This document shows positions 3,514 through 6,607 of a DNA stretch of 64,000 nucleotides, piece after piece. The first letter of the stretch is position 1; each line of letters starts with the position of its first letter. The stretch is from assembly GCF_001595965.1 (NCBI RefSeq), contig NZ_LOJI01000035.1, positions 71,770 to 135,769 on the forward strand. The letters run 5' to 3'. This DNA comes from Polynucleobacter yangtzensis. Its GTDB lineage: Bacteria; Pseudomonadota; Gammaproteobacteria; Burkholderiales; Burkholderiaceae. Under the pieces are notes generated by a model, which was not told the origin of the DNA, searched no databases, and saw only the letters and a program-made list of their open reading frames with translations. Both the position numbers and the translations under genes were made by a program.

Positions 3514-4218
3514 TTGGCAAATATATTAGCCATCGACACCTCCTCAGCTTGGTGTTCGGTGGCTTTATCGTTAGAGGGTCAGGCAGTGCAATTCAGGCAT
3601 GAGACTGTCACAGCTGGTGCCAGTCAATTGTTGTTGCCATGGATAGAGTCGCTCTTAAGTGATGCAAAATCTTCCCTGAAAGACCTTGATGCGATTGCTG
3701 TATGTATCGGCCCTGGTGCGTTTACTGGCGTACGTTTGGGGGTAGCCGCAGTGCAGGGCTTGGCTGTATCGCAAAACATATCTGTAGTGCCGGTATGCAG
3801 CCTTGATGCTATCGCCGCCCAACTTTTAGATTCAGCAGCGCTCCAATCCTCTCAACCTCAGCGCTTGATGATTGCGATTGATGCCCGGATGGAAGAGGTC
3901 TATTGGGCTTCTTACGATATTCAAGACAGACGCTTGCCAAATCGTATTGGTGATATTCACCTGACCAAGCCAGAAGATCTGAATTTAGAAGGAGTGCAAT
4001 TTCTGGCTGGTAGCGCTTTAAATGCCTATAGCCAACGCTTACCGCAATTCACAGGCCTAATCGATCCAGATATCTCTATTTCCGCATTGGGTATTTTGAA
4101 ATGTGCGCAGCAGTCCCTGCAAGACGGGGTGCATTGCGAAGTTCGACAACTAGAGCCCCTCTATGTGCGAGATAAGGTGGCATTTACTACCGCTGAACGA
4201 GAAGAGGTTAAGAGGTAA
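3514..4218 (+). CDS. tsaB: tRNA threonylcarbamoyladenosine biosynthesis protein TsaB
   Basis: ILAIDTSSAWCSVAL start, AVCIGPGAFTGVRLG motif; upstream of rimI. Confidence 0.93.
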   Translation: MANILAIDTSSAWCSVALSLEGQAVQFRHETVTAGASQLLLPWIESLLSDAKSSLKDLDAIAVCIGPGAFTGVRLGVAAVQGLAVSQNISVVPVCSLDAIAAQLLDSAALQSSQPQRLMIAIDARMEEVYWASYDIQDRRLPNRIGDIHLTKPEDLNLEGVQFLAGSALNAYSQRLPQFTGLIDPDISISALGILKCAQQSLQDGVHCEVRQLEPLYVRDKVAFTTAEREEVKR

Positions 4219-4748
4219 TGTCGGATCTCACAACAGCCAAAGGTGTGGCGGAGCTTTCCTTTTTGCCAATGCAGCAAGCTGACTTAGATGATGTCCTGAA
4301 GATCGAATCTGTCTCTCATGTTCATCCTTGGACAAAAGGCAACTTTTCTGATTCTCTCGCAGCGGGTCATTGGGCTTATTGCATTCGACCGCAAGCAGAT
4401 CAAGTGGTGAAGGGGTCCTATTTGGATCCGGCAGTTCTATGGGCATATTGCATCTTGTTTCCTGCTGTAGATGAATTACATCTCCTCAACATCACTGTTT
4501 CCCCGCATTTACGTAAGTTAGGTCTGGGACAAAGAATGATGGCTGCTATTGAGGGCGTAGCTTTTCAGCAGATGATGCCGCGAATTATTCTTGAAGTAAG
4601 GCCAACCAATGAAGCTGCATTAGCCCTTTATCAAAAATTGGGTTACGAGCAAATTGGTATTCGTAAGAATTATTACCCTGCAAGCCCAGAAACTGGTGGA
4701 CGAGAAGACGCTCTTGTATTGGCTAAATCGATTAAGCTAGAGGTATGA
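4218..4748 (+). CDS. rimI: ribosomal protein S18-alanine N-acetyltransferase
   Basis: GNAT motif LHLLNITVSPHLRKLGLGQRMM ... LEVRPTNEAALALYQKLGYEQIGIRKNYY. Confidence 0.93.
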   Translation: MSDLTTAKGVAELSFLPMQQADLDDVLKIESVSHVHPWTKGNFSDSLAAGHWAYCIRPQADQVVKGSYLDPAVLWAYCILFPAVDELHLLNITVSPHLRKLGLGQRMMAAIEGVAFQQMMPRIILEVRPTNEAALALYQKLGYEQIGIRKNYYPASPETGGREDALVLAKSIKLEV

Positions 4749-5266
4749 GCAATAATTCAAGCTTCTTAAAAGAAATGGGCATCACCGAGTGGACATCTCG
4801 TGATGCAATTCAAGCGCAGCCTGAAGCCTTTGTTGTAGCAAGTTCTCAGGCCGCTCCACAGGAGGCGCAATCCTCGCCAAGGGTGGGCAATGGTATGTGG
4901 TGGTTTTTTGGGAATGAACCCCAGGGCGATGCCAAAATTCTGTTTCAAAACCTCATACGAGTTCTGGGTTTAGCCAAGAATGAGTGGTCTTGGAAGAATC
5001 CCTCGGAAAAATTAGGTCAGCTTGAAAATCCTGGATCGCCAGTTGTTGCGATCGCATTTGGTGGGCCAGTTGCTCAAAAGATTACTGGCGAAAGAGATCC
5101 GCTGCCACAGTTGCGCGAAACGGTGCTTGCACTAAATATGGGTAATGATGAAGAAATTCCGGTAATTGCTTCTTTTGAGTTAAATCAAGTACTAACAAAA
5201 CCTAAAGAGAAGGCCATGCTTTGGCAGGATTTGTTAATGGCTCGATCAGTGCTGCAAAACATCTAA
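4745..5266 (+). CDS. hypothetical protein resembling Pol III psi subunit (HolD) / degenerate family-4 uracil-DNA glycosylase fold
   Basis: ATGA overlap with rimI; N-terminal FLKEMGITEWTSRD and C-terminal LTKPKEKAMLWQDLL; contains no cysteine. Confidence 0.5.
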   Translation: MSNNSSFLKEMGITEWTSRDAIQAQPEAFVVASSQAAPQEAQSSPRVGNGMWWFFGNEPQGDAKILFQNLIRVLGLAKNEWSWKNPSEKLGQLENPGSPVVAIAFGGPVAQKITGERDPLPQLRETVLALNMGNDEEIPVIASFELNQVLTKPKEKAMLWQDLLMARSVLQNI

Positions 5267-5287: not shown

Positions 5288-6607
5288 TTAGTGCTTATGC
5301 TCGCCGATAAGATGCATGGAGTCATACTCCGCTTGGTTTCTGGCGTGACGTTTGATAACTAGCCACATAATCAAACTCACAGCTACACCAAATCCAACGA
5401 TCACTATTTGAATGGGCACATCCAACCAAATGAGTAGTGAGTAGATCAATAGCATCATCAGCACAGAAATATTTTCATTGAAGTTCTGCACAGCAATAGA
5501 GTGGCCTGCGGACATGAGTACATGTCCGCGATGTTGCAGTAGTGCGTTCATTGGCACTACAAAGTAACCCGCTAGCCAGCCCACCAGAACTAGTAACATA
5601 TAAGCCGGTAATAAATTGAGGGTAACTTCAAACTTACCGAAGCTAAAAATGCTCGTATTGGGTAATAAATCAGAGTTGTAGACTGCCATCACGCAGACCA
5701 CTAAGCCCATCGCAATGCCGTAAGGCAATACGTTCAAGGATTTGCGCAAAGGAATACGCCATGCGGCATAGACGGCACCACCAGCTACGCCCACAGCTGA
5801 GATAGCTTGCAAAATGGCGCCCTGAGATAAATTCATATGAAGAGCTACTTGTGCCCACTTAATCACAATAAATTGCAGAGTAGCTCCGGCACCCCAGAAT
5901 AAAGTGGTGACAGCTAAGGAGATTTGACCAAGGCGATCATTCCAAAGTGTTTTAAAGCAAATGGCGAAATCTTTAATCAATTCAATTGGATTTGTCTTTT
6001 GAGAAACGTAACGTGCGCCAGTATCTGGAATCTTTAAGTTGATAAGTGCTGCCACAACATAAATCATCATGATGATCATGATTGCTGATTCAGCCGGTGT
6101 ATCAATGCCAGTTTCAAAAGTCGGCATATCCAAGGCAAGCAGACTTTGGGAGACTGTGGTGCTAATCAGAACGCCGCCCAAAACCGTGCCCAAAATAATG
6201 GATCCAACTGTTAATCCTTCGATCCAGCCGTTGGCGGCAACCAATTTTTCAGGCGGAAGCAGTTCAGTCAAAATTCCGTACTTTGCAGGTGAGTATGCAG
6301 CTGCCCCCAAGCCAACAATGGCATATGAGAGCAAAGGGTGGCTTCCAAAGAGCATGGCCACGCAACCGACGAACTTAATCGTGTTGGTAATGAACATGAC
6401 GTTGCCCTTAGGGCGGGAATCAGCAAAGGCGCCAACAAAGGCTGCTAAGAGGACGTAGGACAGCACAAAGAACAATTTGAGCAAAGGAGTCATCCAGGCC
6501 GGAGCATGGAGCTGGGCCAGGAGGGCGATAGCCGCTATCAGGAGAGCATTATCAGCAAGCGACGAAAAAAATTGCGCCGCCATAATGATGTAAAAGCTAC
6601 GGTTCAT
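5288..6607 (-). CDS. lplT: lysophospholipid transporter LplT (MFS)
   Basis: 12-TM MFS protein with LplT-like N-terminus (MAAQFFSSLADNALLIAAIALL) and SPAKYGILTELLPPEKLVAANGWIEGLTV. Confidence 0.9.
   Translation of the reverse strand: MNRSFYIIMAAQFFSSLADNALLIAAIALLAQLHAPAWMTPLLKLFFVLSYVLLAAFVGAFADSRPKGNVMFITNTIKFVGCVAMLFGSHPLLSYAIVGLGAAAYSPAKYGILTELLPPEKLVAANGWIEGLTVGSIILGTVLGGVLISTTVSQSLLALDMPTFETGIDTPAESAIMIIMMIYVVAALINLKIPDTGARYVSQKTNPIELIKDFAICFKTLWNDRLGQISLAVTTLFWGAGATLQFIVIKWAQVALHMNLSQGAILQAISAVGVAGGAVYAAWRIPLRKSLNVLPYGIAMGLVVCVMAVYNSDLLPNTSIFSFGKFEVTLNLLPAYMLLVLVGWLAGYFVVPMNALLQHRGHVLMSAGHSIAVQNFNENISVLMMLLIYSLLIWLDVPIQIVIVGFGVAVSLIMWLVIKRHARNQAEYDSMHLIGEHKH

Follow-up and report, generated by a model that had tools for sequence, protein, structure and literature searches.

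The gene at positions 4745 to 5266 of the forward strand of the window, the whole 64,000-nucleotide stretch of Polynucleobacter yangtzensis DNA that was analysed, encodes a 173-aa protein (P0001) that is best explained, with a probability of about 0.87, as the replication protein psi (HolD), descended from a family-4 uracil-DNA glycosylase (UDG4) that stood beside rimI and already carried a HolD-type N-terminal peptide. The peptide and the fold were kept, and the Fe-S cluster and catalysis were lost. The HolD-like and the UDG-derived descriptions, given as alternatives in the initial annotation, are one answer, and the proposal that a UDG-fold protein without its chemistry serves as psi was supported by profile, structure, genome and synteny tests. 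The psi reading is adopted because the protein is homologous to both families, has lost the catalytic and Fe-S residues, is under selection and is accompanied in its genome by chi (HolC) and by no other detectable psi.

The N-terminus of psi ties the chi-psi complex to the tau/gamma subunits, and the tail of SSB is bound by chi (PMC3290774, PMC3197488). In a 2012 review, chi was placed in the alpha-, beta- and gammaproteobacteria and psi only in the gammaproteobacteria, and it was left open whether psi has diverged beyond detection elsewhere or is absent (PMC3290774); genomes with chi in which psi could not be found have been described (PMC3197488). The rimI-adjacent gene supplies a concrete psi candidate in nearly all Burkholderiales genomes surveyed.

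The gene, its parts and its conservation

The features of the locus are as follows.

3514..4218, forward strand: tsaB, conserved upstream neighbour, named from its place and its similarity to loci elsewhere, without a profile
4218..4748, forward strand: rimI, conserved neighbour, with an ATGA overlap with the psi-like gene
4745..5266, forward strand: psi-like (HolD-like) gene, probable UDG4-derived pseudoenzyme of 173 aa (profiles, fold, body-only hhalign)
4754..4804, forward strand: codons 4-20, N-terminal helix and FLKEMGITEWTSRD peptide of HolD type, putatively clamp-loader-binding (motif model, invariant residues)
4805..4891, forward strand: codons 21-49, disordered, fast-evolving linker (pLDDT <50 at 20-45; dN/dS 0.21-0.38)
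4892..5263, forward strand: codons 50-173, body of UDG/psi fold without Fe-S cysteines or catalytic motifs (model, hhalign, alignment)
5039..5251, forward strand: codons 99-169, match to the C-terminal part of family-4 UDG with the catalytic HPxYL replaced (UDG_fam4, alignment)
5288..6607, reverse strand: presumably an lplT-like transporter gene (named from general knowledge), convergent neighbour kept across Burkholderiaceae

The open reading frame is real, as originally described, with its start inside the ATGA overlap and no cysteine, so that all four 4Fe-4S ligands of family-4 UDGs are missing from P0001. The nearest named loci are those of Polynucleobacter strains (83-90% identity across the protein). 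Against three close relatives, a dN/dS of 0.08-0.09 was obtained for the gene as a whole, with 0-0.06 for the peptide, 0.21-0.38 for the linker and 0.05-0.06 for the body; peptide and body are thus under strong purifying selection. Every one of the 79 good genomes in the genus sample yielded a match, with identities falling below 30% (22-30% in the most distant congeners). In one congener from an earlier sample (G094), rimI has an internal deletion and the psi-like gene consists of two distant fragments that have an identical stretch of 166 bp in common (714-879 of L206 and 1602-1767 of L015); since the locus is broken, the gene is not indispensable in that strain.

The complete genome (G000; 2.05 Mb, 100% complete) was searched for further candidates. 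No second match to PF03603 and no UDG4 match were detected in it; a bona fide holD elsewhere, which had been named beforehand as a refuting outcome, was therefore not found in this genome. HolC is encoded (E 3.2e-28), and the residues F64 and W57 and the motif RERYKAYR of the E. coli protein are conserved in it. F64 of HolC matters for the chi-psi interaction, as judged by yeast two-hybrid analysis, and R128 for SSB binding (PMC4636137, PMC9826845). Among 200 Burkholderiales genomes, HolC was detected in 194 and PF03603 exceeded its cut-off in only three, each time beside rimI. HolC was undetected in all five genomes of one family of the order (f41: G139, G183, G223, G260, G293), a family that could serve as a ready-made control for the psi reading.

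Relationship to psi and to family-4 uracil-DNA glycosylase

Both families were recovered when the protein was compared with curated profiles. The psi profile (PF03603, DNA_III_psi) matched residues 2-87 with an E-value of 2.9e-4 and 21.5 bits, 0.7 bits short of the curated cut-off of 22.2, and the family-4 UDG profile of NCBIfam (TIGR00758, UDG_fam4) matched residues 99-169 with an E-value of 9.1e-4 and 19 bits, not reaching its cut-off of 125.3. The likeness of the N-terminal, middle and C-terminal segments to psi and UDG, initially noticed in the sequence, thereby gained statistical backing. When 25 diverse members of the genus were scanned singly, DNA_III_psi was matched by 24 (E<=0.1; best 2.9e-10) and UDG_fam4 by 20 (best 8.1e-10); the PF03603 cut-off was passed by the ortholog from G012 (22.8 bits) and by P0003 (26.4 bits, over the body). 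A phmmer search of the PDB with P0001 alone returned nothing relevant, and a profile search of the same database gave weak E-values only (0.06-1).

In the N-terminal peptide, L8, G12 and W16 are invariant (alignment A2). The peptide aligns with psi residues 2-23 in 8giy at an E-value of 0.47, which is weak taken alone. It was further assessed with a motif model of 13 residues built from gammaproteobacterial HolD only, in which one inserted residue before the Trp was permitted. The Burkholderiales peptides had scored poorly when the HolD N-terminus was represented by a short HMM or by an ungapped PSSM, because in most of them the Trp is preceded by an additional residue (GLxPxW versus GIxxW); the insertion was introduced after this failure, shuffles and controls were given equal freedom, and the motif was then recovered. 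At p<=0.02, a motif match was obtained in 25/25 genus members and in 89% of 44 UDG proteins beside rimI (median position 7). Among the controls, this threshold was reached by none (0%) of 60 RimI proteins, by 2% of linker segments and, for other UDG4s, by 25% of the pre-cluster regions; most of this last figure is due to UDG4s from other classes, which have a peptide of their own, YLR(E/Q)IGVxTP. This N-terminal peptide is common to UDG4s outside the class (L289, L292, L293, L295-L300, L302, L303, L307, L310, L312, L313 and L315), many of them from family f240, and recalls the HolD peptide minus its Trp.

The AlphaFold model of P0001 (36 sequences; pLDDT 78.9, pTM 0.68) consists of a short N-terminal helix, a disordered segment at residues 20-45 and a body mostly above pLDDT 90. 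In a Foldseek search of the PDB with this model, E-values below 0.01 were obtained for two families alone, UDG4/UdgX (from 5e-5) and E. coli psi, and the next match had an E-value of 0.1. For E. coli psi, 1em8_B was retrieved with an E-value of 7.5e-4 and a TM-score of 0.60 and 3sxu_B with 2.8e-3 and 0.63 (TM-scores on target); the query TM-scores are modest (0.4-0.5), as is to be expected of a protein with a long disordered part. The model of P0003, which is 30% identical to P0001, retrieved the same two families, UDG4/UdgX and E. coli psi. These structural comparisons support the earlier statement that the psi fold is related to that of UDGs. The lack of any profile or structural match to HolD or UDG, also named beforehand as a refuting outcome, thus did not occur. 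With the peptide removed, body-only hhalign gave probabilities of 99.4% for the genus versus UDG4, 97.3% for the genus versus gammaproteobacterial HolD and 97.5% for gammaproteobacterial HolD versus UDG4, the HolD set taking in intermediates such as L081 that may ease this last comparison; the rimI controls remained at or below 0.2%.

In the alignment, the catalytic GE(A/G)PG and HP(A/S)YLL motifs of family-4 UDGs are absent from P0001. Also absent are the Fe-S segment and two loops, ED..GEPFVG and KCRPPGN, all three of which classical HolD lacks equally. Some divergent congeners keep the HP of motif 2 (YHPEHLL versus YHPAYLL in UDG4). For P0001, no glycosylase activity is expected, as it has lost the Fe-S cysteines, two loops, the glutamate of GEAPG and the histidine of HPxYL.

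The rimI locus in other bacteria and the direction of change

The gene after rimI was surveyed for loss of the Fe-S cysteines in 60 Burkholderiales genomes, drawn from most families in the order sample. In 44 of them it encodes a UDG4 in which GEAPG-type and HP motifs are accompanied by four or more cysteines, and in 15 a degenerate protein. The UDGs suspected of being intermediates at this locus thus exist and, as UDG4s with a HolD-type peptide after rimI, are its commonest form in Burkholderiales. The degenerate class was delimited by simple motif rules, and the decay is graded. Five of its members are full-length proteins with damaged motifs (L129, L143, L186, L164, L182), one is full length with a single cysteine (L171) and eight are short (L128, L133, L142, L158, L175, L177, L179, L180). 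Another protein assigned to this class (L165, from G141) retains both catalytic motifs and has three cysteines only, with Ser replacing the cysteine of KCRPP. In the one genome left (G118; locus L144), a 388-aa ORF, named TnpB/OrfB-like by its sequence, lies directly after rimI, where the UDG-psi gene would otherwise stand. In g21 and g22, two other Burkholderiaceae genera that lack UDG4, short psi-like proteins likewise follow rimI. Intact and degenerate forms are both present in families f1, f4 and f26; leaving aside transfer between lineages, this suggests a minimum of three losses.

Outside the order, UDG-psi chimeras that are clearer still stand beside rimI in some gammaproteobacteria; one of them (L086) scored above the curated cut-offs of both families (UDG 136.8 bits; psi 25.3 bits, over residues 2-26). 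The adjacency of holD and rimI on which the initial annotation had relied is conserved as an association; the order is not, holD lying upstream of rimI at the gammaproteobacterial loci examined and the gene described here downstream of it in Burkholderiales (tsaB-rimI-X). The psi/UDG gene and rimI run in the same direction at both the gammaproteobacterial (L069-L089, upstream) and the betaproteobacterial (L127-L186, downstream) loci.

In a tree of all locus proteins, the degenerate proteins were grouped by long branches with few supported forks; the starred branches force only one change, and independent losses are not countable on it. In a reduced tree, a single clade of the genus and the other Burkholderiaceae UDGs was not rejected by the AU test (p 0.57), which is no proof of it. 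Intact motifs are widespread and the decay is graded, which points to evolution from UDG to psi, the tree itself being unrooted. Judging by the relatives of the Polynucleobacter gene, psi may be a uracil-repair enzyme in worn-down form, of which most related bacteria retain an apparently working UDG version with the same clamp-loader-binding tip. As judged from their motifs, the intact-looking UDG-psi proteins would be active. Psi in most betaproteobacteria and some gammaproteobacteria is probably a catalytically active family-4 UDG, the clamp loader's own uracil-excision enzyme at the fork, and classical psi, that of E. coli among them, would be its fossil, the catalytic half having been lost repeatedly. 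From this locus, a repair enzyme is proposed as the source of psi, and a replisome with a uracil glycosylase attached is predicted, testable with purified proteins.

Alternative readings and comparison with known systems

A UDG-derived pseudoenzyme could also sit on the clamp loader through its peptide and do another job, recruiting a partner other than chi or sensing uracil or damage in DNA. Peptide and body are separately selectable, the body is structurally nearest to UDG4/UdgX and the binding of chi by P0001 is a prediction, all of which leaves room for such a role; it is nevertheless unlikely, given that E. coli psi, which ranks next among the structural matches, has this fold and this peptide, that HolC is present with the psi-contact residue F64 kept and that no other psi candidate was found in the genome. 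Still less probable is an active UDG that has dispensed with its cluster, for which the UDG fold and the motif-2 HP of some congeners could be cited: P0001 itself has neither Cys nor HP motif, its GEAPG region is altered, two loops are deleted and its UDG_fam4 score lies far from the cut-off (19 versus 125.3 bits). Hardly any weight falls on a spurious ORF or a functionless, decaying pseudogene. The fast divergence to 22-30% identity in the most distant congeners and the broken locus of G094 would fit it, but the gene is present in 79/79 good genomes, dN/dS is low in body (0.05-0.06) and peptide (0-0.06), and the fold is predicted with confidence.

If P0001 is psi, it should bind DnaX and HolC and act at the replication fork. 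It would dock on the collar of DnaX through its N-terminal helix and GITEW peptide, gain reach from the disordered linker and hold chi, which in turn binds the SSB tail, with its UDG-like body; as in E. coli, the clamp loader would thereby be linked to DNA coated with SSB.

With known HolD/psi (PF03603; E. coli 1EM8, 3SXU, 8GIY), P0001 shares the N-terminal clamp-loader peptide, the disordered linker, the adjacency to rimI, a UDG-like body without catalytic loops and a HolC in the genome. It differs in that its gene lies downstream, not upstream, of rimI, its score is just below the curated cut-off and its C-terminal half carries a clearer UDG4 trace. Family-4 UDGs (TIGR00758; Thermus 1UI0, Sulfolobus 4ZBY) and UdgX (6AIL) resemble it in body fold and C-terminal sequence, and family-4 UDGs occupy the same locus in other Burkholderiaceae; unlike these enzymes, P0001 lacks the Fe-S cysteines, GEAPG, HPxYL and two loops and has the N-terminal HolD peptide in addition. 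No paper on a link between psi and UDGs was found in the open-access papers searched, a set outside which the original chi-psi structure paper (subscription) falls; neither "uracil" nor "glycosylase" is mentioned in the report on the cryptic psi of Pseudomonas aeruginosa (PMC3197488). That protein differs from P0001 in being almost twice the size of E. coli psi, and it binds chi (PMC3197488), as P0001 is predicted to do. Like P0001, it was missed by sequence comparison and has a long disordered N-terminal region (PMC3197488).
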